Shown here: one piece after another, positions 12,586 through 27,615 of the stretch | Layout of the letters: the number at the start of each line of letters is the position of its first letter | How positions within the stretch are numbered: position 1 is the first letter of the stretch | Made by a program: the position numbers and the translations under genes | Assembly: GCF_022429645.1 (NCBI RefSeq) | Contig: NZ_CP092480.1 | Span: 2,896,501 to 2,960,500 of the forward strand | DNA: 64,000 nucleotides | From: Lutibacter sp. A80 | Lineage (GTDB): Bacteria > Bacteroidota > Bacteroidia > Flavobacteriales > Flavobacteriaceae | Reading direction: 5' to 3' | Notes under the pieces: generated by a model | What the model was told of the DNA's origin: nothing | The model's input: the letters and a program-made list of their open reading frames with translations, nothing else | Databases searched by the model: none

Positions 12586-12662
12586 TAGTTAAAAATTTAG
12601 TGCAAGATAGCTATTATTTTATATTTTATTATTTCAAAAATTAACAATTAGCTCATACAATA

Positions 12663-12707
12663 ATAATACATGCTTAACTATTACTTAACAACTGCATGGT
12701 TTATTTG
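12663..12707 (+). promoter_or_regulatory. Candidate Pho box and promoter of the 12730 gene
   Basis: Direct repeats TTAAC at 12674 and 12685, with weaker in-phase ATAAT at 12663, are spaced 11 bp. Exactly 10 bp later is the -7-like element TTTATTTG (12700-12707), 22 bp before the ATG. A further TTAAC at 12641 is in the same phase. Confidence 0.7.
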
Positions 12708-12729
12708 CTGTAATTAAAATTATAGCAAT

Positions 12730-13119
12730 ATGAGATATTTAATTTTTGTTTTTTTACTGGTTATAAGTTCACATAGTTTTGGTCAATCATTAAAAATAGG
12801 ATCTTTGATTGAAAATTACGGTAATGATGGAAAGATTGAAGGCGTTGTATTGGATGGGGAAAACGAAGGTGATCCTTTATTTTTTGCTGAAATACTTGTA
12901 AAAGAAGCTGGTATTAGCGTTGTAACAGATGTTGATGGTGCTTTTAAGCTTAGTTTAAATCCTGGGAATTATACATTAGTTTTTAGTTTTATCGGTTACC
13001 AAACAATTGAAGTTGAAGATGTAGAGGTTTTAGAGAATACTACATTAAAATTAGATCAAGTATTGGGTGCTTTACGTTTAAAAACTACTATTTCTATCGC
13101 TGAAATTAACACCATTTAA
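12730..13119 (+). CDS. Secreted stand-alone carboxypeptidase-like regulatory domain protein (truncated receptor paralogue)
   Basis: 129 residues: signal peptide (1-18, ending FGQ), then one carboxypeptidase D regulatory-like beta-sandwich, then only about 15 further residues. The domain (about 38-115) closely matches the N-terminal domain of the TonB-dependent receptor encoded next: both contain a TLVFSFIGYQT/TVVFSFIGYQT stretch followed by an acidic V-E-V segment and KLDQ. The rest of a receptor (plug and barrel) is missing. Both genes have their own 11-bp repeat promoter, so a duplication of receptor promoter plus N-terminus followed by loss of the remainder is likely. Whether the product is functional is unknown. 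Confidence 0.7.
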   Translation: MRYLIFVFLLVISSHSFGQSLKIGSLIENYGNDGKIEGVVLDGENEGDPLFFAEILVKEAGISVVTDVDGAFKLSLNPGNYTLVFSFIGYQTIEVEDVEVLENTTLKLDQVLGALRLKTTISIAEINTI

Positions 13120-13130
13120 AAGTTAAATAA

Positions 13131-13208
13131 TTTACATTAAATTAACAGATTTATTACCATTATATAACACTTCGTTAACTTCTCATTTACTTAGTAGCTC
13201 TTCCTTTG
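13131..13208 (+). promoter_or_regulatory. Six-copy Pho box array and promoter of the TonB receptor
   Basis: Six direct repeats in perfect 11-bp phase: TTTAC 13131, TTAAC 13142, ATTAC 13153, ATAAC 13164, TTAAC 13175, TTTAC 13186. Ten bp after the last is TTCCTTTG (13201-13208), a -7-like element 22 bp before the ATG. This is the longest array of the type in the window. Confidence 0.78.
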
Positions 13209-13230
13209 CGCAAGAATTTAAAACTAAAAA

Positions 13231-15966
13231 ATGAAGAATTTTTATATTGTATTACTTATACTTATTAGCACAGTGGCAGTTGGCCAAACTAAAGGAACAA
13301 TTTCTGGAATTGTTTTAGATAAGGAAGTAAATAACTCACCATTGCCATTTGCAAATGTTTTTATTAAAGGAACATCTGTAGGTACTACAACAGAATTTGA
13401 AGGAGAATATACTTTACAAGTTGATGAAGGGTCGTACACTGTTGTTTTTAGCTTTATAGGTTATCAAACAGTTGAGATACCAAATGTTATTGTTAGCGCA
13501 GGAGAAAACACAAAATTAGATCAAATTTTAAGTGCAAGTCAAGGAGTTTCTTTAAGTGAAATTCAAATTACGGGTTCTACTAAAAAAGAATCTGAAAGGG
13601 CACTTTTAACTGAACAAAAAAAAGCGACAATAATTAAAGAAAGTATTGGTTCAGAAAGGTTGGCAAAAACAGGTGTTTCTAATGCGGCTGTGGCAACTTC
13701 TAAAATTTCAGGTGTTACTAAAAATGAAGGTTCTGGAGATATTTTCATTCGTGGTTTAGGTGATCGCTATTTAACAACAACTATGAATGGTTTGCCAATA
13801 CCTTCAGATGATGTTGAAAAAAAGAATATAGAATTAAATTTATTCTCTACAGATATTATTCAAAATGTTGGAATTAGTAAAACTTATAGTTCCGAAAACT
13901 ATATAGATCAAGCTTCTGGTAATGTAGATATTACTACAAAAGAATATAATGGAGGTGGATTTTCAATTGGAATTAGCGGAGGATCTAATTCAACGGTTCT
14001 AAAAAATGGTATTTTTAATAATTTTAGAGCAACTCAAAATACTAACGATTTAAGTTTTGGATTTTATACCAAAAAATATGCTTTAATCAATGCAATCACT
14101 TTACAAAGTTGGAATACAGAAACTAGAAGTACTCCATTAAATTTTGGAGTTTCTATAGCAGGTGGAAAAAAGCTTCAATTATTTGAAAAAGACCTTACTG
14201 TATTTGCAACACTTTCACACAAAGGCTCTTATAATTATGAAAGTGGAATTTTTAAAAAATACAGATCAAATGTTTTAAATAATTCATTTACAGATGTAGA
14301 GGCTTATAAAACAACCATTAATACAACAGGGCTTTTTAATTTAAGTTACCGATTAAATAATAATCATAAAATAAAATTCACCAGTTTATTTGTAAATAAA
14401 ACTATTGATAATTTATTTGAACAAGGTAGAAATGGTGAAGGCTATGTTTTTGATCAAGACCCTTCAGAATATGGTGCTTTTGTAAGAGATCAAAATTTAA
14501 AACAAACCAGAATGTTTGTAAACCAAGTTTTAGGAACTCACGATATTACTGAAAATAATAAGTTAAATTGGGGTGTTGGTTATAACTATGTAATTGCAAA
14601 AGAACCTAATAGAATTAGAAATGAAGTGAGTATTTTAGATGAAAATACTGTTCAGTTTGCTCACGTAGGAGATTTTCAACAAAGAAAATCTGATCAAAAA
14701 ATTAAAGATGTTGAATTAAACGGAACCTTAAAAGACCAAATTACGTTTAATACAGATTCAGAACATACTTTTAAATTAAATTTTGGAGCTGATTTCCGTC
14801 AAAAAGAAAGAAATTTTAATTCTTTATTTGTTGGGGTTAGGGCAAAAGGTTTTCAAGTAACTTCTATAGATGATTTATCTGTAGCATTTGATGATATGTA
14901 TTTTAATAATGGTACAATAACTTTAAGAGAAAGACCTGAAGATATTTATAATGCAACTCTTGAAACTTATGCTGGGTTTGCTAATTTAGATTTTAGCTTT
15001 AATAAGCTAACTGGTAATATTGGTGTTAGATACGAAAATGATAATTTAGGTGTAAATTGGGATGTTACAAATTATGTTGGTAGAATAGGTTCTTTAAATA
15101 ATGATTATAACAATTTAGCACCAAGTTTAAATTTTAAATATGAGTTAAACGAAACTAATTTTTTAAGATTAGCGGGTAGTAAAACTATTACACTACCAGA
15201 ATTTAAAGAATTAGCACCATTTGAATATGTTTCACCTACAGGGCGTGTAACAAAAGGAAACCCAGAGTTAAAAGAATCTACTAATTATAATGTTGATTTA
15301 AAATGGGAACTGTACCCTTCTTCAAAAGAATTAATTTCTGTAACTAGTTTTTATAAAAGAATAGAAGATCCAATAAATTTATCTCAAACAAGAGGTTCTT
15401 CAGGTAATTTTTCATACGATAATACTGGTGAAAAAGCCGATGTATTAGGGTTGGAGTTTGAAACTAGATTTAATATTATTGATAAAGAAAATAGTGATTT
15501 AAACATTAATATTAATGCAACAAAAATGTGGTTTAATCAAGATTTATTAGAAGAATTCCAATACAACAATAAAACCGCATCTGATTTACAAGGAGCTTCG
15601 GATTTTATAGTTAATACAGCTTTAAGTTATTCTAATAATCAAGAAAATGAATTTAATGCTACATTATCAGGAAATTACTCATCAGATAAAATTTACGCAT
15701 TAGGAGCTCCAGAAGATTTTAGTAATAGCGCAATTTTATATAATGATGAAATTATTGAAGAAGGATTTGTAACACTTGATTTGGTTTTAAGTAAACAATT
15801 AAGCAAACAATTTTCAGTAAAATTAGTTGGAAAAAACTTATTAAATCCAAGTATTGAGCAATCTCAAAAAGTAAAACCATTATCATCAGAAATTGAAACT
15901 AATGAAATTATTAGTTCTTATAAAAAAGGTTTAGATTTAAGTATAGGATTTAAATACACGTTTTAA
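13231..15966 (+). CDS. TonB-dependent outer-membrane receptor (phosphate-island)
   Basis: 911 residues. Signal peptide (1-19), carboxypeptidase D regulatory-like domain (about 23-108), TonB plug (about 125-240, with GSGDIFIRGLGDRYLTTTMNG), then a long beta-barrel ending in the aromatic terminus GFKYTF. It imports a ligand across the outer membrane using TonB energy. No SusD partner follows; instead the next gene is a duplicated lipoprotein. The strong Pho-type array upstream and the pst genes downstream suggest uptake of phosphate or a phosphorus compound, which is inference. The plug sequence resembles receptors whose substrates are not sugars. Confidence 0.88.
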   Translation: MKNFYIVLLILISTVAVGQTKGTISGIVLDKEVNNSPLPFANVFIKGTSVGTTTEFEGEYTLQVDEGSYTVVFSFIGYQTVEIPNVIVSAGENTKLDQILSASQGVSLSEIQITGSTKKESERALLTEQKKATIIKESIGSERLAKTGVSNAAVATSKISGVTKNEGSGDIFIRGLGDRYLTTTMNGLPIPSDDVEKKNIELNLFSTDIIQNVGISKTYSSENYIDQASGNVDITTKEYNGGGFSIGISGGSNSTVLKNGIFNNFRATQNTNDLSFGFYTKKYALINAITLQSWNTETRSTPLNFGVSIAGGKKLQLFEKDLTVFATLSHKGSYNYESGIFKKYRSNVLNNSFTDVEAYKTTINTTGLFNLSYRLNNNHKIKFTSLFVNKTIDNLFEQGRNGEGYVFDQDPSEYGAFVRDQNLKQTRMFVNQVLGTHDITENNKLNWGVGYNYVIAKEPNRIRNEVSILDENTVQFAHVGDFQQRKSDQKIKDVELNGTLKDQITFNTDSEHTFKLNFGADFRQKERNFNSLFVGVRAKGFQVTSIDDLSVAFDDMYFNNGTITLRERPEDIYNATLETYAGFANLDFSFNKLTGNIGVRYENDNLGVNWDVTNYVGRIGSLNNDYNNLAPSLNFKYELNETNFLRLAGSKTITLPEFKELAPFEYVSPTGRVTKGNPELKESTNYNVDLKWELYPSSKELISVTSFYKRIEDPINLSQTRGSSGNFSYDNTGEKADVLGLEFETRFNIIDKENSDLNININATKMWFNQDLLEEFQYNNKTASDLQGASDFIVNTALSYSNNQENEFNATLSGNYSSDKIYALGAPEDFSNSAILYNDEIIEEGFVTLDLVLSKQLSKQFSVKLVGKNLLNPSIEQSQKVKPLSSEIETNEIISSYKKGLDLSIGFKYTF

Positions 15967-15986
15967 ATATCCTAGAATTCTTTATT

Positions 15987-16078
15987 AAAAAAGAGGCTAT
16001 AATAAAAGTGAAGTTTACATCAACCTGAATCAAGTTCAGAAAGACGATGTTTATTACTTTTAATATAGTCTCTTTTTA
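15987..16078. repeat. Long imperfect hairpin (about 33-bp arms) after the TonB receptor
   Basis: The arms 15987-16021 and 16046-16078 pair with few mismatches, each beginning AAAAAGAG and running through CTATA and AAAAGT blocks. A small inner hairpin CTGAA/TTCAG (16025-16039) caps the loop. The outer arm ends in a T-run, so it can terminate, but its size and conserved-looking loop suggest a dispersed repeat family. Confidence 0.6.
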
Positions 16079-16093
16079 TTTTCAAAAATCAGC

Positions 16094-16190
16094 ATAACAT
16101 TTTTTTAACATTACAGCTAAATTCAATAGAATTCATAATACATACTTAATGTTTTCTTAAGGGCTAGGTGGTACTAAAAAAGGTTATTTG
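16094..16190 (+). promoter_or_regulatory. Candidate Pho boxes and promoter of the duplicated lipoprotein
   Basis: Distal set: ATAAC 16094, TTAAC 16105, GCTAA 16116. Proximal set: ATAAT 16135, TTAAT 16146, TTAAG 16157, GTGGT 16168. The -7-like element GTTATTTG (16183-16190) follows the last register by 10 bp and is 41 bp before the ATG. The proximal copies are degenerate. Confidence 0.55.
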
Positions 16191-16231
16191 CACATAATTA
16201 ACATAAACAAATAAATTCAAATTTTAAAAAC

Positions 16232-18187
16232 ATGAAAAAAGTGAATTATAAATTTATTGGAATAACAGCATTAGTTGCTTTATTTACATTATTTAGCTGT
16301 GACGATAGTGATCCTGATCCAATTATAAATCCAACGGATGAAGTAGTTGAAAATTTAAAAATTGGTGTAATGAATGGTTTTTTAGAAGAAGACTACACAT
16401 TAAATGCTTCAACAAGTTACGATTTAACAGGTTCTTTTATTGTTTCAGAAGGAGCAACACTTACCATTCCTGCTGGAACTCAAATTGTTGCTGATAAAGG
16501 AGGAGTAGATGTTTTTATTGCAGTGTTAAAAGGAGGAAAAATTAATATTAACGGTACAGATAGTGATCCTGTTGTTATGTCTTCTATAGATGGAAACCCA
16601 GGAGACTGGGGAGGTTTAACAATTTGTGGTAAAGCTACAACTACAGCAGGTGTTGACGCTGAGGCTGAAGTTGGCGGGTTTATTTACGGTGGAACAGAAG
16701 ATACTGATAATTCAGGTACAGTTAAAAACTTAGTAATTATTGGTACAGGAGCTCAAATTAGTTTAGACTCTCAATACAATGGTGTATCTTTTTATGCAGT
16801 TGGTTCTGGAACTACAGTAGAAAATATTGCTGTAATAAATGGTTCTGATGATGGTGTGGAATTTTTTGGAGGAACTGTTTCTGTAGAAAATTTATACTTA
16901 GAAAATAATGAAGATGATGCTATCGATTGGACAGAAGGTTGGAACGGTACTGTAAATAATGCGTATGTTGTAAATACTATTGAAGGTTTTTCAACTGTGG
17001 TTGAGGCTGATAAAGCTAATGGTAATCCTAAAATTAATAACTTAACTGCAATTTCAACAGTAGGAGGAACTGCTCTACAATTTAAATTAGAGTCTGGAGC
17101 AACTTTCTCAAATTTATATTTAAGCGGTTATGATACTAATATTGATATGAAAGATGATGGAGCTTTGTCTAATGTTATTATAGATGGTGTAGCTGCAACT
17201 ACAACAGATAGTTATAATTTAGGTGCACTTGTAGATATTTCAAATTGGAATTTTATAAATGGTCAATATGTGGCTTTAGAAGTGTTAAACGGAAACTTAA
17301 CATCTAACAAAACATTAACTGCAGATACAAACTATAGTTTAACAGGTTCTTATATTGTTCAAGATGGAGTTACACTAACTATTGAAGCTGGAACAAAAAT
17401 TACTGTAGATAAAGGTGGAGTTGATGTGTATATTGCTGTTCTTAAAGGTGGTAAAATAGATATACAAGGAACCGAAAGTAATCCTGTTATTATGTCTTCT
17501 GCTAATGCAAGCCCTGGAGATTGGGGAGGTTTAACTATTTGTGGTAAGGCTACAACAACTGCTGGTGTAGATGCTGAAGCTGAAGTTGGAGGATTTATTT
17601 ACGGAGGTACAGATGATACTGATAACTCTGGTTCAATAAAAAATCTTGTAATTAAAGGAACAGGAGCTCAAATTAGTTTAGATTCTCAATACAATGGAGT
17701 GTCTTTATATGCTGTAGGTTCTGGAACAACATTAGAGAATATTGCTGTAATAGATGGTGCTGATGATGGAATAGAGTTTTTTGGAGGTACTGTTTCAGTT
17801 TCTAATATTTATTTAGAAAACAATGAAGATGATGCTGTTGATTGGACTGAGGGTTGGAACGGAACCGTTACAAATACCTATATTTCGCATACAGTAGCAG
17901 GTTTTTCAACAGCTTTTGAAGGTGATAAAGTTAATAACAACCCTAAATTTGTAAATGTAACTGCTATTTCAACTGTTGATGGTACAGCATTGCAATTTAA
18001 ATTAGAATCTGGCGCAACTATCACTAATTTATATTTAGAAGGTTATGCAAAAAATATAGATATGAAAGATGATGGAGCTTTATCGAACGTTATTATTGAT
18101 GGAGTTGCAGCGACTACAACCGATGCATATAATACAGGTACTAAAGTAGATATTTCCTCTTGGTCTTGGATTGGAGCAGGTTTATAA
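16232..18187 (+). CDS. Surface lipoprotein of two ~305-residue beta-helix-like repeats
   Basis: 651 residues. Lipoprotein signal with lipobox LFSCDD (Cys about 24), a Pro/Asp linker, then two near-identical domains (about 45-349 and 350-651). Each holds runs typical of right-handed beta-helices: LTIPAGTQIVADKGG, GDWGGLTICGKATTTAGVD, GVEFFGGTVSVENLYLENNEDDAIDW. Asp-rich turns could bind Ca2+. I do not recognise a named family or catalytic motif. The position directly between a TonB receptor and pstS, each with an 11-bp repeat promoter, argues for a role in phosphorus scavenging at the cell surface, for example ligand capture for the receptor. That is inference. A bidirectional terminator follows. 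Confidence 0.75.
   Translation: MKKVNYKFIGITALVALFTLFSCDDSDPDPIINPTDEVVENLKIGVMNGFLEEDYTLNASTSYDLTGSFIVSEGATLTIPAGTQIVADKGGVDVFIAVLKGGKININGTDSDPVVMSSIDGNPGDWGGLTICGKATTTAGVDAEAEVGGFIYGGTEDTDNSGTVKNLVIIGTGAQISLDSQYNGVSFYAVGSGTTVENIAVINGSDDGVEFFGGTVSVENLYLENNEDDAIDWTEGWNGTVNNAYVVNTIEGFSTVVEADKANGNPKINNLTAISTVGGTALQFKLESGATFSNLYLSGYDTNIDMKDDGALSNVIIDGVAATTTDSYNLGALVDISNWNFINGQYVALEVLNGNLTSNKTLTADTNYSLTGSYIVQDGVTLTIEAGTKITVDKGGVDVYIAVLKGGKIDIQGTESNPVIMSSANASPGDWGGLTICGKATTTAGVDAEAEVGGFIYGGTDDTDNSGSIKNLVIKGTGAQISLDSQYNGVSLYAVGSGTTLENIAVIDGADDGIEFFGGTVSVSNIYLENNEDDAVDWTEGWNGTVTNTYISHTVAGFSTAFEGDKVNNNPKFVNVTAISTVDGTALQFKLESGATITNLYLEGYAKNIDMKDDGALSNVIIDGVAATTTDAYNTGTKVDISSWSWIGAGL
16364..18184 (+). 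repeat. Intragenic tandem duplication, period 915 bp
   Basis: Units 16364-17278 and 17279-18184 encode the two copies of the lipoprotein domain. Matching landmarks are 915 bp apart, for example the GGAGAYTGGGGAGG block at 16601 and 17516. Many third positions differ while protein blocks stay identical (GGLTICGKATTTAGVD in both), so the duplication is old and protein-level conservation has been maintained. Confidence 0.85.
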
Positions 18188-18209
18188 ACAAAACTTATTT
18201 TTTAAAATT

Positions 18210-18238
18210 AAAGAGGGTGCTAATTTAGCACCCTCTTT
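18210..18238. terminator. Bidirectional terminator
   Basis: A perfect 12-bp stem AAAGAGGGTGCT / AGCACCCTCTTT around a 5-nt loop with T-runs on both strands. It separates the convergent lipoprotein and MORN-type genes. Confidence 0.9.
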
Positions 18239-18262
18239 TTTATTAAGAACATTAATTGAGTA

Positions 18263-18610
18263 TTAATTAATTACTAAAGCTTTTTCTTCAACCTTAATAA
18301 TTTTATTTTCTTTATAAGTAACTAGGCTTACTTTATCTTCTTTAAAATAAGTCCAAACTCCCTCTTTTTTACCGTTTGTGTAATTGGCAATTGATGTTTT
18401 ATTTCCTTCTAAATCATAGCTAATCCAGTTTCCATGTAATTTACCATCTGCATCAAAATAACCTTCCCTTTCAATTAAATCACTATTATCTGCAAAATAA
18501 TAAGTTGCTTTTACTAAATTATTAGTTACTTTTTTATAATCTACTTTTTGTTCTTGCGCAAATGATGTTACACAGAATAACAGAACCGCTATTTTTAAAA
18601 TTGTTTTCAT
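18263..18610 (-). CDS. Small secreted MORN-type repeat protein
   Basis: 115 residues. Signal peptide (1-19, ending SFAQ), then about four short beta-hairpin repeats of the MORN_2 type: EGYFDADGKLHGNWISYD, then GNKTSIANYTNGKKEGVWTYF, then a final KVSLVTYKENK copy. Proteins of this type are often annotated YwqK-family antitoxin, a label that does not fit a secreted protein with no partner. Its upstream region carries four 11-bp-period repeats and a perfect -7 element, so it probably belongs to the same phosphate regulon. Function unknown. Confidence 0.75.
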   Translation of the reverse strand: MKTILKIAVLLFCVTSFAQEQKVDYKKVTNNLVKATYYFADNSDLIEREGYFDADGKLHGNWISYDLEGNKTSIANYTNGKKEGVWTYFKEDKVSLVTYKENKIIKVEEKALVIN

Positions 18611-18655
18611 AATATATATGTTTTTTTAATTAATATTTGTTGTTTTAAGCTGTAT

Positions 18656-18711
18656 CAAATTTAGTTTATTAGCATTAAATTTACTATTTCTTAACATTAA
18701 GTTTACATTAA
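18656..18711 (-). promoter_or_regulatory. Candidate Pho box and promoter of the MORN-type gene
   Basis: Read on the minus strand: TTAAT (18711-18707), TTAAT (18700-18696), AAATA (18689-18685), TTAAT (18678-18674), all in 11-bp phase. After 10 bp comes the perfect -7 element TAAATTTG (18663-18656). The spacing is identical to that at pstS. The 18611-18973 gap otherwise holds only AT-rich sequence and the pstS promoter. Confidence 0.68.
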
Positions 18712-18907
18712 GTTTTTTGTAAAAACACATAAAACACTGATTTTATGTGTTTTAAATCTAACTCGTGAAGTCTTCTAAAATTTGGATATTAAAATATAAA
18801 GTTTATTGAGCCTTTCCAATTGTGTTTAAATAATAAATATATTCAATAACAAATTGTTACTATTTATTAATGCAGAATTTAAATTACAGTAAAATTATCT
18901 CAAATAC

Positions 18908-18952
18908 TTAATTTTCTGTTAACCAAAACTTAACAACTGAATCATTTCTTTG
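18908..18952 (+). promoter_or_regulatory. Candidate Pho box and promoter of pstS
   Basis: TTAAT 18908, TTAAC 18919 and TTAAC 18930 in 11-bp phase. Ten bp later is TTTCTTTG (18945-18952), 21 bp before the pstS ATG. The last repeat and the following AACTG are shared with the promoter at 12685. This is the reference site because pst operons are classic Pho targets. Confidence 0.8.
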
Positions 18953-18973
18953 TAATACATAAAAAGAATAAAA

Positions 18974-19924
18974 ATGAAAAAAATAGTATTTATACTTTGC
19001 TTAGTAATAGTAGCAATTTCTTGTGGTGAAAAAAAAGATAAAAAAGCGATTTCGAATAAAGATGTGTTAGAAGGCACTATTAAAATAGATGGATCAAGTA
19101 CTGTATTTCCTGTAACAGAAGCAGTAGCTGAAGAGTTTAGAGCAGTACAACCTAAAGTAAAGGTTACCATTGGAGTATCTGGTACTGGTGGAGGTTTTAA
19201 AAAATTCTCAAGAGGTGAAACTAACCTTTTAAATGCATCGCGCCCTATAAAAAATAAAGAAAAGGAAGCTTGTATTGAAAATAATATTAATTATTTAGAA
19301 TTAGAAGTTGCTTACGATGGTTTAGCAGTTTTAGTAAATCCAGAAAATGATTGGGTAGATAACTTTACTGTTGAAGAATTAAAGAAAATTTGGGAGCCAG
19401 CTGCTCAGGGTGTAATTATGAAATGGAACCAAATTAGACCAGAATGGCCAGATGAAGAAATCCATTTATTTGGACCAGGAGTCGCATCGGGTACCTATGA
19501 TTATTTTACAGAAGCTATTGTTGGTAAAAGTGGTTCAAGTAGAGGTGATTTTACAGCAAGTGAAGACGACCATGTTTTGGTACAAGGAATTGCAGGTGAT
19601 AAATATTCACTAGGTTTTTTTGGATTAGCATATTATTCTGAAAATAAAGATAAGCTAACTTTAATTGGTGTTAATAATGGAAAAGAAGTTGTAAAACCAA
19701 CTTTAGAAACCGTGAGTAATGGCACATATAGTCCCTTATCAAGACCTTTATTTGTGTATGTAAACAGTACGTCGGTAAAACATCCTGAAGTTGTAGAATT
19801 TATGAATTTTTATATTGATAATGCAGGTGAATTGGCTGAAGATGTTGGGTATATTTCTTTGCCTTCAGAATTGTATGTAGCACAAAAAGAACATTTCAAA
19901 GCTTTTGTTGAAAGTAATAAATAA
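18974..19924 (+). CDS. pstS: Periplasmic phosphate-binding lipoprotein PstS
   Basis: 316 residues. Lipobox at Cys17 (VAISCGEKK), then a PBP-like domain with the phosphate-contact loops [13 protein letters not shown] (about 39-51) and [12 protein letters not shown] (about 67-78) and the downstream [11 protein letters not shown] loop. It delivers phosphate to the PstCA-B ABC importer. It starts the pstSCAB-phoU operon and is separated from pstC by an 88-bp gap with competing hairpins, which could make PstS more abundant than the membrane subunits. Confidence 0.97.
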
Positions 19925-19927
19925 TTA

Positions 19928-19997
19928 AAAAAACTGAAGCTGTTTAATCGTTGTGTTTAATTTATCTGAACGGATCTCAGTTTTTTAAACAGCTTCA
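19928..19997 (+). promoter_or_regulatory. Overlapping, mutually exclusive hairpins between pstS and pstC
   Basis: Stem 1 pairs AAAAAACTGA (19928-19937) with TCAGTTTTTT (19977-19986). Stem 2 pairs TGAAGCTGTTTAA (19935-19947) with TTAAACAGCTTCA (19985-19997). The arms overlap and cross, so both cannot form fully at once. Stem 1 ends in six T residues like a terminator. An attenuator or processing site is likely. Confidence 0.6.
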
Positions 19998-20012
19998 TTT
20001 AAATTATAATTA

Positions 20013-20891
20013 ATGCGAAAAATAAAAGAATTTATAATTGAAAAATCACTATTATTTAGTGCTTTAATTACAATTGCAGTAACTTTTGGAATTATTTCGG
20101 TATTAACTATAGAGGCTTTTCAGTTTTTTAGCGAAGTTTCAATAATAGAATTTTTTACAGATACGCAATGGACTCCTTTATTTACAGATAAACACTATGG
20201 TATTTTACCATTATTGTCTGGAACACTATTAATTTCTTTTATAGCAATTTTAGTAGCACTTCCTGTAGGACTTTCAATTAGTATTTATTTAAGTGAATAT
20301 GCCCCGAAAAGTTTTAGAAAAACAGTAAAACCCTTATTAGAATTATTGGCCGCTGTACCAACAGTTGTATATGGTTTTTTTGCTTTAATTGTAGTAACTC
20401 CATTTTTACAACAATTTATTCCTGGTTTATCTGGATTTAATTCGCTTTCAGCTGGTATTGTAATGGGAATTATGATTATTCCATTTGTTTCATCTATTAG
20501 TGAAGACGCATTGCATGCAGTACCTAAAGATTTAAGAGAAGCATCTTATGGAATGGGAGCAACAAAATTACAAACAGCTTTTAAAGTAGTTGTTCCAGCT
20601 GCTTCTTCGGGTATTATTGTATCTATAATTTTAGCAATTTCAAGAGCCATTGGTGAAACTATGATTGTAGCTATTGCTGCAGGTCAACAACCACGATTAA
20701 CCTTAGATCCAACCGTTCCTGTTGAAACAATTACAGCATATATAGTTCAAGTAAGTTTAGGAGATGTGCAGCACGGATCAATTGAATACAGAACAATTTT
20801 TGCTGCTGGTATTACATTGTTTGTATTTACATTTTTACTGAATACATTGAGTTATAGAATTAGAAAAAAATACCAAGAAAAATATGAATAG
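20013..20891 (+). CDS. pstC: Phosphate ABC transporter permease PstC
   Basis: 292 residues with six predicted membrane helices. The MetI-like permease signature in the cytoplasmic loop (EASYGMGATKLQTAFKVVVPAASSGI, about 187-212) marks the contact with PstB. FFTDTQWTPLF near 50-60 is typical of PstC. It overlaps pstA by 8 bp. Confidence 0.95.
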   Translation: MRKIKEFIIEKSLLFSALITIAVTFGIISVLTIEAFQFFSEVSIIEFFTDTQWTPLFTDKHYGILPLLSGTLLISFIAILVALPVGLSISIYLSEYAPKSFRKTVKPLLELLAAVPTVVYGFFALIVVTPFLQQFIPGLSGFNSLSAGIVMGIMIIPFVSSISEDALHAVPKDLREASYGMGATKLQTAFKVVVPAASSGIIVSIILAISRAIGETMIVAIAAGQQPRLTLDPTVPVETITAYIVQVSLGDVQHGSIEYRTIFAAGITLFVFTFLLNTLSYRIRKKYQEKYE

Positions 20892-21738
20892 TATTCAAAA
20901 AAATAGATTAAAAGATCAACTGTTCAAAATTTGGGGAATAGCTTGTACACTATTTGGGTTGGTTTTATTAACTGTATTTATAGGTGATATTTTAATTGAT
21001 GGAATTAGTAGAATAGACTGGGCTTTTATTACCGATTTACCTTCTAGAAAAGCCGAAAAATCTGGAATCTATACTGCTCTTATGGGAAGTATTTGGATTT
21101 TACTTTTAACAACAATAATAGCATTTCCTGTTGGAGTAGCTGCAGGTGTGTATTTAGAAGAATACAATAAAAAAAATAGACTCTCAGCAATCTTAGAAAT
21201 TAATATCTCTAATTTAGCTGGTGTACCTTCTATAATTTATGGTTTATTAGGTTTAGAAGTTTTTGTAAGAATTATGAGTTTAGGAGCTAGTGTTTTAGCA
21301 GGTGCATTGACTTTATCGTTATTAATACTTCCTATTATTATTGTAGCTACTCGAGAAGCCGTAAAAGCAGTTCCTAGTTCTATTAGAGATGCGTCTTATG
21401 CTCTAGGTGCTTCAAAATGGCAAACAATTTGGAATCAGGTTTTACCAGCTTCAGGCGGTGGTATTTTAACAGGTGTAATTTTGGCACTTTCTAGAGCCGT
21501 TGGTGAAACAGCACCATTAATAGTTGTAGGTGCTTTAGCATATGTTCCTTTTGCACCATCAAACCCAATGGATGAATTTTCGGTGTTGCCAATTCAAATT
21601 TTTAATTGGATATCAAGACCACAGCACGGTTTTATTGAAAATGCTGCTGCTGCAATTATTATTTTATTATTAATAACATTTATAATGAATGGTATAGCTG
21701 TTTATTTTAGAAATAAATGGCAAAAGAAATGGAAATAA
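20884..21738 (+). CDS. pstA: Phosphate ABC transporter permease PstA
   Basis: 284 residues with six predicted helices and the PstA hallmarks [16 protein letters not shown] (about 57-72), [15 protein letters not shown] and the coupling loop [21 protein letters not shown] (about 171-191). It pairs with PstC to form the inner-membrane channel. The 8-bp overlap with pstC and an overlap or near-contact with pstB indicate translational coupling. Confidence 0.96.
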
Positions 21739-21740
21739 CA

Positions 21741-22559
21741 ATGACAAAAGAAAAAGATAAAAAGCGTATCGAATCAGATCAAATTGACGCTCAATTTTCG
21801 AGTGAAGGTGCTAAAATAGCTATTAAAGATGTTAAAGTTTGGTATGGAGATTTTATGGCAATTAAAGGAATTGACATGAATATTAAACCAAATACTGTAA
21901 CGGCATTTATTGGTCCGTCTGGTTGTGGTAAATCTACATTTCTTCGTTTATTCAATAGAATGAACGATTATGTAGATGCTTTTAAAATGGAAGGAAAAAT
22001 TAAATTAAATGGGAAAAACATTTATAAAAGTAAAGTAAATGTTGAAGAACTACGTAAAGAAGTTGGTATGGTTTTTCAAAAACCAAATCCTTTCCCTAAA
22101 TCAATCTTTGAAAATGTAGCTTATGGACTAAAAATTCAGGGAATAACAGATAAAAAGTTAATTAATGAGCGTGTAGAAAAAGCCCTAAAACAAGCAGATC
22201 TTTGGGAAGAAGTAAAAGACAATTTAAAAAAATCTGCACTTGCTTTATCTGGTGGTCAACAACAACGTTTATGTATAGCGCGTACTTTAGCCGTTGAGCC
22301 TTCAATTATTTTAATGGATGAGCCAACATCGGCATTAGATCCAATTTCAACAGCTAAAATTGAAGATTTAATATTTGAGCTTAAAGAAAAATATACAATA
22401 GTTATTGTTACTCATAATATGCAACAAGCAAGTAGAATAAGCGATTATACGGCGTTTTTCTATATTGGTGAGCTTATTGAATTCGACAAAACAAAAACAA
22501 TTTTTACAAACCCAGAAAAACAACAAACCGAAAACTACATTACTGGTAGATTTGGATAA
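21741..22559 (+). CDS. pstB: Phosphate ABC transporter ATPase PstB
   Basis: 272 residues from the ATG at 21741, just after the pstA stop. In-frame ATGs at 21717 and 21729 would overlap pstA and add only a charged tail, so the start is uncertain. Numbered from 21717, the Walker A motif GPSGCGKST is at 66-74, the signature LSGGQQQR at 177-184, and Walker B ILMDEP at 198-203. [12 protein letters not shown] is the PstB-specific N-terminal strand. It drives phosphate import; phoU follows after 12 bp. Confidence 0.95.
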
Positions 22560-22571
22560 AAACATAGAATT

Positions 22572-23237
22572 ATGATAATAAATGCACAAGAGCAAAGAGC
22601 CAGTTTAAACGAAGCTGGTTTTGAAATGCTAATTTTATGTATTTCGCAAATAGAAAAAGCAACCGAAGCATTTTTAACACACGACAGCGATTTAGCAGAA
22701 GAGGTTATAAATACAGAAACACGCGTAAATGCATTGGATTTAAAAATTGAGAACGATTGTGAAAAGTTTTTAGCACTTTACACTCCCGTTGCTATTGATT
22801 TGCGTTTTATAATGGCAATTTTAAAAATTAATTTTGATTTAGAGCGTATTGCAGATCACGCTTATGGAATCTCAAAATATATTGTTGATCAAGATATAAA
22901 AATAGATCCAGAGTTACTAAAGGCTTTAGAGTTTGAAAAAATGCACAAGACTATCTTATCTATGTTTAATGATATAACAGCTACTTATGAAGAAAAAGAA
23001 GCTAAATTTGCTAGAAAAGTATTTAAAAAAGACAAAATTTTAGATAAAATAAATGCGAATTCATTTGCTATTATTGAAGACGAAATTAAAAAAGATACTG
23101 CAGTAATAGACCAAACATTATTGGTGTTTAGCGTTATTAAAAAGTTTGAGCGTATTGGAGATCTAATAAAAAATATTGCTGAAGAAATTATTTTTTATAT
23201 TGATGCAGAGGTGGTTAAACATAAAAAGGTGAAATAA
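22572..23237 (+). CDS. phoU: Phosphate signalling complex protein PhoU
   Basis: 221 residues with two three-helix PhoU domains (about 10-95 and 115-210). Conserved metal-site motifs are present: ALDLKIENDCEKFLAL, then ILKINFDLERIADHAYGIS in the first, and VIKKFERIGDLIKNIAEEI in the second. PhoU couples the Pst importer to the PhoR sensor kinase. It is the last gene of the pst operon and faces the convergent Na/Pi transporter gene 45 bp away. Confidence 0.95.
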   Translation: MIINAQEQRASLNEAGFEMLILCISQIEKATEAFLTHDSDLAEEVINTETRVNALDLKIENDCEKFLALYTPVAIDLRFIMAILKINFDLERIADHAYGISKYIVDQDIKIDPELLKALEFEKMHKTILSMFNDITATYEEKEAKFARKVFKKDKILDKINANSFAIIEDEIKKDTAVIDQTLLVFSVIKKFERIGDLIKNIAEEIIFYIDAEVVKHKKVK

Positions 23238-23282
23238 GTTGTTGTAAAACTATATCTCAATTTTTATGAAGTTTTTTTAAAA

Positions 23283-25052
23283 TTAAGATTGTAATTCTTC
23301 ATTTTCAAAAAGAGAATCGTTATTTCCGTAGAGTAATTCTGCAACTTGAATTAATTTTTTAATCATATCGTTTACATTCGTATTGTCATTAAATAGCGAA
23401 GAAGCCATTTCAGCAGAAATTAAATTTTTTCTAATTAATTTATCTATCGATTTATTACTTTGTCTAATGTTTTCTTTAGCTTTTTTCTTTAAAATATTTA
23501 ATTTTTCGGCATATTTTTCAGAATTTTCTTCGGTTCTAAACAAATGAATTATACGTAAAACTTGCGTTAATTTTTTTCTAAAACTATTATATTCATTCAT
23601 TAAATCTTTATTGTTAAGAGTTAACGATTTGGTTAAATTTTTGTTTAATTCTCTAGCGTCTTTTATTATTTCAACCATTTTTCGGTTGGCAATTTTAATA
23701 TCTGTTATAGAATTATTATGCTTTTTTGTTAGTTTTAGGTCGTTTTGTGCGGTTGTGGCATACCTTAATATTTCGCCATAAATGGTTTTAAATTTTTTGT
23801 AATATAAATTCTCTATATCTACATTAAAATTTTTAGTTGATTTTTTAACAACTGTTTTAATTTTTAAATTAGAGGTTACATCTTTTCTATGAATATTTAA
23901 ACTGTGTGAAACAATTTCAAATACAGCGTTTTTATATAAAAATTTAGTCTCTTTAACCAAAGCTGAAATTGTAGCATCTGGATATTTTAAAACAGCTTCA
24001 TTTAAATATTTAGGTTCATCAATACCTTTAGTTAATTTTTCTTTAAAGAAATTTATTAAAAAGGACTCTAATTTTTTTATAAACGGAATCATAATTAATA
24101 CACCAATACTATTAAAAATAGTGTGAAATAATGCAAGTTTTAAGGTGTAATCTGTTGGTGCTATATGTACTAAATCAGCTAAAATATTTACAAGCGAAGC
24201 AAGCGGATATATAAATATTAAGGCAATTAAACCAGTAATTATATTAAATATTAGATGTGCTCCAGCTAATCTTTTACCTGCAATATTAGATTTTAAAGAA
24301 CCTAAAACAGCGGTTATAGTTGTGCCAATATTTGCTCCAATTGCCAAAGCTAAGGCGTTTTCATACTCAATTTGACCTGCTGATAATGCAGTTAATACCA
24401 ATACCAAAGAAGCAGCACTAGATTGCAATACAATTGTAATAATTATACCAATAAAAGTATATAATAATACGCCTAAAAATCCTGATACGGCATATTGAGT
24501 TAGGTCTATATGTTGGCTAAAAACATCAAATCCTTCTTTCATAAAGAAGATTCCAAGAAAGAAAAAACCCAAACCAGCAAGTATATTTCCAATACCTTTT
24601 AAAGTACTAGATTTTTGAAAGGAAAAAATTAAACCAAAAATAATCATTGGCATTGCTAAAGCAGAAATCTTAATTTTTAATCCAAATCCAGCTACTAACC
24701 AAGCGGTTGTTGTGCTTCCAATATTAGCCCCAAAAATTAATCCAATACCTCCTCCAAGTGTAATTAAACCTGCACTTATAAATGAAATAGTAATTACAGA
24801 AACCAATGAGCTAGATTGAATTAATGCAGTTACAAAAGCACCTGCAGTAATACTTTTGTATAGTTTATCGGTTGCTTTTTTTAGAAAATTTTGAAGAGGA
24901 CCTCTGGTAAATGCTTTAAACCCCTCTTCTAATAATACCATTCCAAAAAGTAAAATTGCAACACCCGCTGTTATAGTTTCAAAATTTGGATTGAAATAAA
25001 GGGTAATAGCTAGTGCAATTAATAAAAGAGTAAGTATAATTTTTTTAAGCAT
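23283..25052 (-). CDS. Na/Pi cotransporter (NptA/YjbB type) with C-terminal PhoU-like region
   Basis: 589 residues. About eight membrane helices in residues 1-345, arranged as two inverted repeats each with the diagnostic QSSS motif (ALIQSSSLVSV and IVLQSSAASLVLV), and the GANIGTTITAVLG loop. Residues from about 370 to 589 are a charged, all-helical PhoU-like domain (LTKSLTLNNKDLMNEYNSF and related helices). It moves phosphate with sodium; the direction may be import or efflux. No 11-bp Pho repeats are seen upstream, unlike the flanking phosphate genes. Confidence 0.88.
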   Translation of the reverse strand: MLKKIILTLLLIALAITLYFNPNFETITAGVAILLFGMVLLEEGFKAFTRGPLQNFLKKATDKLYKSITAGAFVTALIQSSSLVSVITISFISAGLITLGGGIGLIFGANIGSTTTAWLVAGFGLKIKISALAMPMIIFGLIFSFQKSSTLKGIGNILAGLGFFFLGIFFMKEGFDVFSQHIDLTQYAVSGFLGVLLYTFIGIIITIVLQSSAASLVLVLTALSAGQIEYENALALAIGANIGTTITAVLGSLKSNIAGKRLAGAHLIFNIITGLIALIFIYPLASLVNILADLVHIAPTDYTLKLALFHTIFNSIGVLIMIPFIKKLESFLINFFKEKLTKGIDEPKYLNEAVLKYPDATISALVKETKFLYKNAVFEIVSHSLNIHRKDVTSNLKIKTVVKKSTKNFNVDIENLYYKKFKTIYGEILRYATTAQNDLKLTKKHNNSITDIKIANRKMVEIIKDARELNKNLTKSLTLNNKDLMNEYNSFRKKLTQVLRIIHLFRTEENSEKYAEKLNILKKKAKENIRQSNKSIDKLIRKNLISAEMASSLFNDNTNVNDMIKKLIQVAELLYGNNDSLFENEELQS

Positions 25053-25152
25053 AAATATAAACGTAATTGGTACAAGATCTTTTTAAGACATTAAAACTCA
25101 TTTTAAAGCACATGAGTATACTTGTAAACATACAAAATATTTATAATTAAAA

Positions 25153-25174
25153 AGCCCTCAATTACTTGAGGGCT
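25153..25174 (-). terminator. Terminator of the Pit gene
   Basis: A perfect 9-bp stem AGCCCTCAA/TTGAGGGCT with a 4-nt loop, followed on the minus strand by a run of T residues, 25 bp after the pit stop codon. Confidence 0.88.
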
Positions 25175-25198
25175 CTATAATATTAAAAAAAATAATTA

Positions 25199-27451
25199 TT
25201 ATTTATTAGCTTTTTCTTGAATTTGAAAATCGTGGAATAATTGCAATAAACTCATTAAGGCATATAGTAGATCTTTAGTTTCTAATAAAATTCCAAAATA
25301 TAATGATGAGTTTTTAGGACTGCTTTCTTCAGTTCTAATTCTAGCAATTTGTTTATCTATAGATTCGGAAACATTGTCAAATATTTCTTGTTTTGCATCT
25401 AAAATTGTAGATAAATTATCAAAATCTTTAGCAGTAAAATCAGTTTCAATTTTACTTAACAGTACATTTAAACTTTTATTAATAGCTTTTAAATCTTTTA
25501 CAGAAGAAGCTTTTAATTGTTTGTGATTGTTATTTACGTGTTTGTAACTTGTAGTTGAAATGTATTCAATAGACTGTGTAATGTCTTGTAAATAACCTAA
25601 AATTAAAATGTAGAATCTACTAGCTTTTACAGAAGTATCATCTAGAGATTTAATAAAATAAAACACTTCTTCTCTTAACTCATTAACTTCATTATTTAGT
25701 TTTCTTACGTGTTTATCGGTTTTAGATAATTTATTTAAATCGTGTGTAGATAAATCGGAAACAACATTTGTAAATAATTTATTTACACGTTTAACAACTT
25801 GTGAAATATGAGCCGAACTTTCGTTTATAACCTCATTAATTGTAATTTGTTCTGCGCGTTCCATGTAGCGCTTTTCTTTTTTCTCTTGTGCTCTTTTTGC
25901 ATGGTTTATTTTACTTCTAATTAGTAAAAATGCAACAATAATTAATAAGATGGCAACTGAAACAATTTCACCTAAATAAATAACGTAAGCTAAAATTGCC
26001 GCTAAAGTAAATGCTGAAAAAGCTGTTAAAAACCAACCACCAATTACATTAAAAACACCAGCAACTCGGTAAACAGCACTTTCTCTTCCCCAAGCTCTAT
26101 CGGCTAGTGAAGTACCCATAGCTACCATAAAAGTTACATAAGTAGTAGATAAAGGAAGTTTTAACGAAGTACCTATTGAAATTAAAATACCTGCTACAAA
26201 TAAGTTTACGGATGCTCTTACTAAATCGAATGCAGGAAGCTCATATGATTTGTCTTTTGGTAATTTTATTACAGGTTTTTGAAATTTTGAATCAACCCAG
26301 TTAATAACAGGGTTTGGAATTATTTTGGAAACTCCTTTATTAAATAAAATAGCACCTCTTACAACTACTCTTGAAGCAGGATTTGGATGAAATTTTTCGT
26401 GACCTTCTCCTTGTCTAGAAAGGTTTACACCTGTTTCAATAACATCTTTAGCTTTTTTAGAAAACCAAATAGTTACTACCATTATTAAACCAGCAATAAA
26501 AAGTAATATTGGTTGTGCTTGTACATCGCCTTTTAAAACACCCATTGAAAATTCTGAAGCTTGAACTCCACTTCCAGACCAAGCTTGGTAAGAGTTTAAC
26601 GCAGCCATAGGCACTCCAATAAAGTTTACTAAATCATTTCCTGCAAAAGCCATTGCTAAAGAGAATGTTCCAATAATAACAATAAATTTTAAAATATTTA
26701 CTTTGAAAATCATTATCAGAAATTGTGATAATATTGTCCAAAATACAAATCCATAGAATATTATTTCATAGGTTCTTCCTTCAATTAAATGTTTTACATT
26801 TCCATAAAAATCAGTTCCTTTCATTCCTTTTACAAAAATAAAATAGGTAATTGCAGTAATTGCAAAACCTCCAAAAAGCGCATTTACATAGCTTTTTCTT
26901 TTCTGAAAATCAAAGGAATATAATAAACGGGACAAAAATTGGACAATAGCTCCAATGGTAAAAGCTACTAAAACGGATAATAAAATTCCAAAGATAATTT
27001 TTAATGCGGTTGAAGAATTAATGTATTTTCCAAGTTCCGCAATCGACTCTCCGTTATTTGATATTTTAATTAATGAAATTGCAACTGCAGCTCCCATTAA
27101 TTCAAATACAATAGATACGGTAGTTGAGGTTGGCATTCCTAATGAATTAAAGACGTCTAATAGTAAAACATCGGCAATCATTACTGCCATAAAAATGAAC
27201 ATTATTTCATTAAAATAAAACTGACTTGGGTAAAAAATACCTTTTCTAGCAACCTCCATCATACCACTAGATGTTATTGCTCCAAGTGCAACACCTATAC
27301 TCGCTATAATTAAAATTGATTTTACTGGAATCGCTTTAGAACCAATAGCTGAGTTTAAAAAATTAACAGCGTCATTACTAACGCCTACTACTAAATCTAT
27401 AATTGCTAATACCGTTAGCGCTACTAACATTAAAATGTAAATATTTTCCAT
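25199..27451 (-). CDS. pit: Inorganic phosphate transporter PiT with C-terminal PhoU-like region
   Basis: 750 residues. The PHO4/PiT core has the two diagnostic signatures GVSNDAVNFLNSAIGSKA (about 23-40) and GNDLVNFIGVPMAA (about 271-284), plus LPLSTTYVTFMVAMGTSLADRA near 430-451. About twelve membrane helices end near residue 520. From there a charged helical tail of about 220 residues (EHISQVVKRVNKLF-type helices) resembles PhoU, an extension found in several Bacteroidota PiT proteins. It imports phosphate or metal-phosphate driven by cations. The upstream 11-bp repeats indicate Pho control. Confidence 0.9.
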   Translation of the reverse strand: MENIYILMLVALTVLAIIDLVVGVSNDAVNFLNSAIGSKAIPVKSILIIASIGVALGAITSSGMMEVARKGIFYPSQFYFNEIMFIFMAVMIADVLLLDVFNSLGMPTSTTVSIVFELMGAAVAISLIKISNNGESIAELGKYINSSTALKIIFGILLSVLVAFTIGAIVQFLSRLLYSFDFQKRKSYVNALFGGFAITAITYFIFVKGMKGTDFYGNVKHLIEGRTYEIIFYGFVFWTILSQFLIMIFKVNILKFIVIIGTFSLAMAFAGNDLVNFIGVPMAALNSYQAWSGSGVQASEFSMGVLKGDVQAQPILLFIAGLIMVVTIWFSKKAKDVIETGVNLSRQGEGHEKFHPNPASRVVVRGAILFNKGVSKIIPNPVINWVDSKFQKPVIKLPKDKSYELPAFDLVRASVNLFVAGILISIGTSLKLPLSTTYVTFMVAMGTSLADRAWGRESAVYRVAGVFNVIGGWFLTAFSAFTLAAILAYVIYLGEIVSVAILLIIVAFLLIRSKINHAKRAQEKKEKRYMERAEQITINEVINESSAHISQVVKRVNKLFTNVVSDLSTHDLNKLSKTDKHVRKLNNEVNELREEVFYFIKSLDDTSVKASRFYILILGYLQDITQSIEYISTTSYKHVNNNHKQLKASSVKDLKAINKSLNVLLSKIETDFTAKDFDNLSTILDAKQEIFDNVSESIDKQIARIRTEESSPKNSSLYFGILLETKDLLYALMSLLQLFHDFQIQEKANK

Positions 27452-27489
27452 TTCTTTTTTATTAATGTGGCAAAAATACTTTCTATCTA

Positions 27490-27546
27490 CAAAGTGTATA
27501 TTAAGTTAATGTTACTAATGTTAATTTAGTATTAAATTAATGTTAC
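27490..27546 (-). promoter_or_regulatory. Candidate Pho box and promoter of pit
   Basis: Minus strand: GTAAC (27546-27542), TTAAT (27535-27531), TTAAC (27524-27520) and AACAT (27513-27509) in 11-bp phase. They are followed after 11 bp by ACACTTTG (27497-27490) as a weak -7 element, about 38 bp before the ATG. The spacing is one base longer than at the other sites. Confidence 0.55.
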
Positions 27547-27615
27547 GTAGATTGACCTGTAAATTAAATTCACATTGTGTTATATACCTTAAATTTACTA
27601 AATTTTATGTACATT

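Follow-up and report, generated by a model that had tools for sequence, protein, structure and literature searches.

The PhoP box of Bacillus subtilis has a TTAACA-like core. In Escherichia coli the Pho box bound by PhoB consists of tandem direct repeats with an 11-bp period (PMC4415409, PMC1906773) placed 10 bp upstream of the -10 element (PMC1906773), and direct repeats of similar features are described for B. subtilis (PMC4415409). In the Bacteroidota, whose primary-sigma promoters carry a -7 element of the form TAnnTTTG at -12 to -5 (PMC9723704), PhoB of Bacteroides fragilis binds its own pstC promoter in an electrophoretic mobility shift assay and pstC expression requires PhoB, the accessible part of that report giving no box (PMC3547664); a study of plcP clusters in marine bacteria, with one flavobacterium among its strains, marks Pho boxes and gives no sequence for them in its accessible part (PMC4796936). 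Our search, which covered open-access literature and not RegPrecise itself, found no written-out consensus for a Bacteroidota Pho box. Here we analyse a window of 64,000 nucleotides from Lutibacter sp. A80 (NZ_CP092480.1, positions 2,896,501 to 2,960,500 of the forward strand; genome of 3.93 Mb in a single contig), in which six genes of a phosphate island are preceded by direct repeats with an 11-bp period, each repeat being a 5-mer core (TTAAC, TTAAT, TTTAC or close) followed by a 6-bp linker. These repeats are very probably the Bacteroidota form of the Pho box, used by a PhoB-type activator through the mechanism set out below.

An earlier note on this DNA, made from its letters, had reported such repeats with 6-bp spacers before all six genes; they are indeed there, in arrays longer than it had claimed. 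The predicted array before the gene at 12730 (12641..12707, plus strand) has five registers, two of them weak (TTAAC 12641, CTCAT 12652, ATAAT 12663, TTAAC 12674 and TTAAC 12685), and runs into the -7 element as TTAAC-N10-TTTATTTG (12700-12707, plus strand). Six registers, spaced every 11 bp, precede the receptor gene at 13231 (13131..13208, plus strand; TTTAC, TTAAC, a weak ATTAC, ATAAC, TTAAC and TTTAC) and end in TTTAC-N10-TTCCTTTG (13201-13208, plus strand). On the minus strand, the array of the 18610 gene (18656..18711; TTAAT, TTAAT, a degenerate AAATA and TTAAT) ends in TTAAT-N10-TAAATTTG (18663-18656), and that of pstS (18908..18952, plus strand; TTAAT, TTAAC and TTAAC, 15.6 bits), which is identical in Lutibacter oceani, ends in TTAAC-N10-TTTCTTTG (18945-18952, plus strand). 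A spacing of exactly 10 bp to a TTnnTTTG or TAnnTTTG element had been put forward for these four promoters and for that of the lipoprotein gene at 16232; it stands for the four and fails at 16232, where the 8-mer found 10 bp past TTAAG is TACTAAAA and does not fit TAnnTTTG, so that we rejected it as the -7 element. The likely -7 of this gene is GTTATTTG (16183-16190, plus strand), which lies a further 11-bp register downstream, behind a degenerate GTGGT, and in phase with a weak array (16135..16190, plus strand; ATAAT, TTAAT, TTAAG and GTGGT) whose best in-phase pair reaches only 6.3, strong cores standing at registers 2 and 3 in six relatives. Farther upstream lies a second repeat pair, CATAACATTTTTTTAACAT (16093..16111, plus strand; 12.3 bits), which is stronger than the in-phase array, out of phase with the -7 and present in L. 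oceani too. At pit the earlier note had placed the -7 11 bp past TTAAC, at ACACTTTG, which is probably not the element; TATTTTTG (27478-27471, minus strand) is likelier, as it lies 10 bp past a degenerate TTTGT and keeps phase with the TTAAT and GTAAC of the nearest array (27471..27515, minus strand; GTAAC, TTAAT and TTTGT). A second block of three registers (GTAAC, TTAAT and TTAAC; 27520..27547, minus strand) stands upstream of it, offset from the first.

A pair of repeats in phase with a TTTG (an in-phase pair) scoring at least 10 was found in five of the six window leaders; shuffling the dinucleotides of the six 1000 times never gave more than one such leader. Scanning the whole window for in-phase pairs of at least 9 gave six matches, of which five are the promoters of pit, pstS, 12730, 13231 and 18610. 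The sixth, at 18192 on the minus strand, lies where the 16232 and 18610 genes converge, close to a terminator-like hairpin, and is probably chance, because shuffles give about one such match per 64 kb (mean 0.97). Plus-strand matches of 18.6 and 11.7 bits at 18679..18708 overlap the 18610 array and are probably the 18610 site read backwards, the core being nearly palindromic.

The motif was then learned from other genomes, using 47 pstS leaders (one from Balneolaceae) from which the window, L. oceani (L036) and a near duplicate, L039, had been excluded. An unsupervised search on leaders not cut at neighbouring genes returned the coding end of the upstream gene, oprP, and was replaced by a search restricted to intergenic sequence. 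Of 39 initial loci, the 14 from outside the Bacteroidota and their relatives were left out of the motif work and 13 of these were scored singly; one leader from the window's genus (L105) was retained, and retraining without it leaves the ranking unchanged. L039 and L109 were removed as near duplicates from the register alignment and from the phase and shuffle controls, and some divergent neighbours have leaders that overlap. The de novo motif is an 11-bp direct repeat, [CG]TTAACATTA[GC]TTAACAT, with a log likelihood of 334, where five mononucleotide shuffles gave 102-119 and ten dinucleotide shuffles 102-127. Its nine best matches in the 64-kb window are all intergenic, within the island and upstream of five of the six genes, the best of them, at 18690, overlapping the 18610 array on the opposite strand. 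Ranked by the matrix, the six leaders come 1-6 of the 33 window leaders of at least 60 bp (Mann-Whitney p = 8.6e-5 against the 27 others). With a matrix trained only outside Flavobacteriaceae (33 leaders), five of the six rank first and the receptor leader eighth of 33 (p = 1.2e-4).

The repeats lie upstream of phosphate-acquisition genes and are rare elsewhere. Among leaders of gene types held out of training (the receptor, lipoprotein, 12730, 115-aa and pit types) 59 of 87 reach at least 10 bits, five of them the window's, as against 2 of 87 when the matrix columns are reversed, and 62 of 87 do so with the matrix trained outside Flavobacteriaceae. Control leaders (pstC, pstA, pstB, phoU, phoR and sodium/phosphate (Na/Pi) cotransporter) pass 10 bits once in 76. 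The window's Na/Pi cotransporter had been said to lack the motif, and so it does (score -5.1), as do all nine Na/Pi leaders at the threshold of 10; the other non-phosphate promoters that had been listed as lacking it are covered here among the 27 other window leaders. Of 537 unlabelled leaders 64 pass, compared with 9 for the reversed matrix, and 29 of the 47 unlabelled genes with a site of at least 9 in phase with TTTG match the OprP of L. oceani by BLAST. Receptor leaders have an in-phase pair of at least 8 in 27 of 31 cases, the window's included, with five good registers in 12 of those 27; lipoprotein leaders do so in 9 of 12, six of them (L084-L089) with strong cores at registers 2 and 3.

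Spacing in these leaders is tightly ordered. Half-sites of the held-out leaders are 11 bp apart in 60 of 87 and 22 bp apart in 31 of 87, any other spacing from 7 to 23 bp occurring in at most 17 of 87. TTTG lies mostly 14, 25, 36, 47, 58 or 69 bp past the end of the second core in the best box, and 28 of 31 TTTGs of pstS leaders, 32 of 49 of the held-out types and 46 of 66 of unlabelled genes fall in one phase of 11. No comparable peak is seen for seven other words or for TTTG upstream of the box, apart from TTGT in pstS leaders, which overlaps TTTG. At least three good registers are present in 62 of 107 in-phase sites, and a frame moved by +3, -3 or +5 bp retains one register or none in every site of the 107 except one. 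In-phase sites occur in 9 of 14 families of the class-level pstS set; as the sequences are related by descent, binomial p values (2e-26 and 6e-22) overstate the evidence. Given TAnnTTTG at -12 to -5, register 0 occupies roughly -27 to -23 and register 1 roughly -38 to -34; the registers thus span the position of a -33 element, and the TTTG-aligned in-phase sites show no separate -33 motif. The register 10 bp before the -7 is a fixed position, with a good core there at four of the six window promoters. In the aligned sites, in which TTTG itself was required, the first bases of the -7 are T (54%) or G (38%) and then T (63%) or A (36%), not TA, and this departure suggests weak promoters in need of an activator.

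In the genome scans the pattern STTAACATTANSTTAACATTN8TNNTTTG, a composite written after OprP sites were known, was allowed up to two mismatches. It gave 36 matches in 35 of 147 Flavobacteriaceae genomes and none for the reversed control; of the 30 loci read, 25 precede homologues of OprP (that of L. oceani matches PF07396, phosphate porin), one precedes Pit and four precede other genes. In 342 Bacteroidia there were 22 matches as against two in the control, 13 of them before genes for one type of protein of 213-216 aa (the four tested are PhoU_div/DUF47), one before an OprP homologue, one before a PstC homologue, two, in loci that also contain phoB, before a small gene (the one tested has MORN repeats), four before other genes (two receptor-like) and one for which no downstream open reading frame was found. 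The box stands before a DUF47-type gene, with phoR present, in the loci L233-L240, L242-L244 and L246 of family f39, and in L172 and L187 the composite box precedes related genes for 160-aa membrane-like proteins, which are possibly a further regulon member, or chance. The scan that the earlier note had proposed, carried out here for the most part, bears out enrichment before pst, OprP and the held-out phosphate genes of other Bacteroidota and fails in the loose counts of the window's own genome; as for the enrichment it expected before pit, phoX and phoBR, pit is mixed, phoX and phoB leaders mostly go without, so that not every phosphate gene carries the box, and phoR leaders are among the controls. 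With at most one mismatch to a loose pattern, three of the four matches in the window's genome lie in the island, from whose own sites that pattern was written. The fourth, the sole such match outside it, is TTAAC-N6-TTAAC with TAAAGTTG before a thioredoxin-like lipoprotein gene (L003 1501-1534; G000:C1:1157372).

That the repeats are bound by a PhoB-type regulator in place of a -33 element, as had been proposed, is supported at the level of sequence by their concentration before phosphate genes, the phase lock, the lack of a separate -33 motif and the loci that also hold phoB. The candidate PhoB of this genome is an OmpR-type regulator at about G000:C1:2358352-2359044, followed by a PhoR-like kinase, and its two best families are the Bacteroides PhoB and general PhoB models (NF053854, TIGR02154). 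It has RTIDVxIRKLREK in its DNA-binding domain in common with the 20 orthologues fetched, x being H in all except L051. The genome encodes five Trans_reg_C regulators, i.e. four besides this candidate, and OmpR-family proteins generally bind direct repeats, as would be expected if another member of that family, or a different binder of 11-bp repeats, were responsible and the link to phosphate indirect. We consider this unlikely, since phoB occurs in 9 of the 20 TonB-receptor loci that were fetched, in 11 of the 61 pst loci (the latter being about half from outside Flavobacteriaceae) and in two of the 22 loci (3 kb each) of the class scan, phoR being present in 12 of those 22, all in one family. 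Furthermore, the same architecture recurs where PhoB is of the Bacteroides type: among 17 genomes of the class with a PhoB over the Bacteroides cut-off, 15 have pstC, four of these pst loci (L220, L221, L223 and L224) were excluded as their operon start was judged to lie outside the locus, and an in-phase pair of at least 8 is present in 7 of the 11 leaders that could be read, the shuffle mean being 0.005 of 11. The best two, L216 and L217, have four good registers among the first six and an in-phase site about 225 bp before the ATG used, and the gene likely starts earlier than that ATG. The binding of the B. fragilis pstC promoter by PhoB (PMC3547664) also speaks against another regulator. 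In Flavobacterium johnsoniae two proteins encoded beside phoBR, a receptor with the Pfam domains of the window's receptor and a lipoprotein, are listed as strongly induced by phosphate depletion (8.02 and 9.91; PMC8115612).

Two further explanations were considered. TTAAC-like words could have been picked by eye from AT-rich intergenic DNA, and the loose patterns in the window's own genome, which do not exceed the reversed control (82 vs 118; 23 vs 52), are what chance would give. Against this stand the six leaders, placed first of 33 by a matrix learned elsewhere, the phase lock and 11-bp spacing in other genomes, the shuffles and the composite scans (36 vs 0; 22 vs 2), which together leave us regarding chance as extremely improbable. 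An A+T-rich UP element, or curved DNA phased with the helix, would account for repeats that are A+T-rich, spaced at nearly a helical turn and placed upstream of the promoter; a conserved TTAAC core flanked by C or G and concentrated before phosphate genes is not expected of it, and we hold that the repeats are very unlikely to be such elements rather than mainly an activator site.

A number of observations nevertheless weigh against reading the repeats as a PhoB-type Pho box. The candidate PhoB falls below the NCBIfam cut-offs (211.1 vs 270 for NF053854 and 208.2 vs 296.2 for TIGR02154). No site in the window's own genome matches the strict composite pattern, and, as no enrichment over the reversed control is seen there with the loose patterns, the genome's own regulon is not listable from them. 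All 12 phoR-linked matches of the class scan belong to the single family f39. Within the island, the receptor leader reaches no more than 7.7 with the 19-column matrix, and it was the in-phase score that found its site; pit leaders in general are divided, with 11 of 23 reaching at least 10. Two of 20 phoB leaders reach 10 and the phoB leader of the window's genome has no in-phase pair of at least 8, which gives little support to autoregulation of phoB through the box, a possibility that we set aside; PhoB of F. johnsoniae is listed as induced (3.06; PMC8115612). OprP, elsewhere the commonest carrier of the box, is not induced by phosphate depletion in F. johnsoniae (listed -1.3, P 0.245; PMC8115612). 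Six strong PhoX loci in genus g111 have no in-phase box, the leader of one of the loci, L199, lying outside the locus fetched; L197, another of the six, has a 14.3-bit site without an in-phase TTTG, and of eight weaker PhoX loci one (L205) has an in-phase site, of 10.4 bits. None of four pstS leaders of family f49 reaches 10, and five of six of family f13 have strong boxes without an in-phase TTTG. The f13 pstS leaders L122, L125, L131 and L132 have GTTAACTATTACTTAACAT or a close variant in common, and leaders of this family may use a different, TATTTTCG-like, -7 element.

In the mechanism that we propose for the PhoB-type Pho box, phosphorylated PhoB would bind head to tail with one protomer per 11-bp register at the core [CG]TTAACAT. 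The gene-proximal register would end 10 bp before the -7, so that the array would occupy the -33 place, and PhoB would recruit the primary sigma factor at a -7 of the form (T/G)(T/A)nnTTTG. Since this element often departs from TA, the promoters should be weak without PhoB, and the genes would be activated at low phosphate. As a tentative elaboration, which we are inclined to doubt, a strong half-site pair could nucleate PhoB one to several registers upstream, with weaker in-phase registers relaying contact to the polymerase, and phase, not distance, could then define the promoter. The clearest cases of such a phase-locked ladder would be the lipoprotein leaders L084-L089, in which registers 2 and 3 are strong and registers 0 and 1 degenerate, and the receptor leaders with five good registers.

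The island itself includes a gene for a protein matching the CarboxypepD_reg_2 domain (12730..13119, plus strand), followed by the TonB-dependent receptor (13231..15966, plus strand; matches to CarbopepD_reg_2, Plug and OMP_b-brl_3) and a predicted lipoprotein with internal repeats and without a Pfam family (16232..18187, plus strand), which from gene order may be the counterpart of F. johnsoniae FII (PMC8115612). A secreted-looking protein of 115 aa without a Pfam family (18263..18610, minus strand) precedes pstS, pstC, pstA, pstB and phoU (18974..23237, plus strand), the Na/Pi cotransporter (23283-25052, minus strand) and the Pit-type phosphate transporter (PHO4; 25199..27451, minus strand). 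In L. oceani, the closest named pstS relative found (90% identity), an OprP gene with a Pho box stands directly before pstS (L036 8629-9819), and no gene occupies that place in the window (18611-18973). The window's genome has two PF07396 loci, neither of which matches the L. oceani OprP well or has an in-phase box. Genes for a PstS of the window's type are patchily distributed, with matches at E <= 1e-40 in 9 of 149 Flavobacteriaceae and 32 of 346 Bacteroidia genomes, counts that take in the genome of the window.

To judge from the open-access literature searched, the Bacteroidota consensus and its phase rule with the -7 element are new. They offer a readable phosphate-regulon code for a phylum about whose regulatory sites little is known, abundant though it is in soils, seas and guts; core, period and -7 phase can be scanned for in any Bacteroidota genome, predicting promoters and making PhoB regulons testable. 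The tandem direct repeats, their 11-bp period and the 10 bp to the promoter element are as in the E. coli Pho box, from which the sites described here differ in their core ([CG]TTAACAT instead of CTGTCAT), in the Bacteroidota -7 element and in that three or more registers are common. Five Bacillaceae pstS leaders scored 2.8-11.0 with our matrix, as single best sites only. The Streptomyces PhoP box is likewise built of direct repeat units, with a GC-richer core, GTTCACC (PMC4415409), and the pstS leader of a Nocardiopsis (L071) has CTTCACC-N4-GTTCACC. Compared with other Bacteroidota primary-sigma promoters (PMC9723704), those studied here have TTTG, which the alignment required, at a like position and differ in that the first bases of the -7 are not TA and no separate -33 motif is visible. 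The cyanobacterial SphR box (in Synechocystis CTTAACCT, with at least three repeats of 8 bp and a 3-bp linker) belongs to another phylum and another promoter element, and the accessible part of its description holds no phase rule; it nevertheless has nearly the same core and the same 11-bp period as the repeats of the Lutibacter island (PMC1906773).

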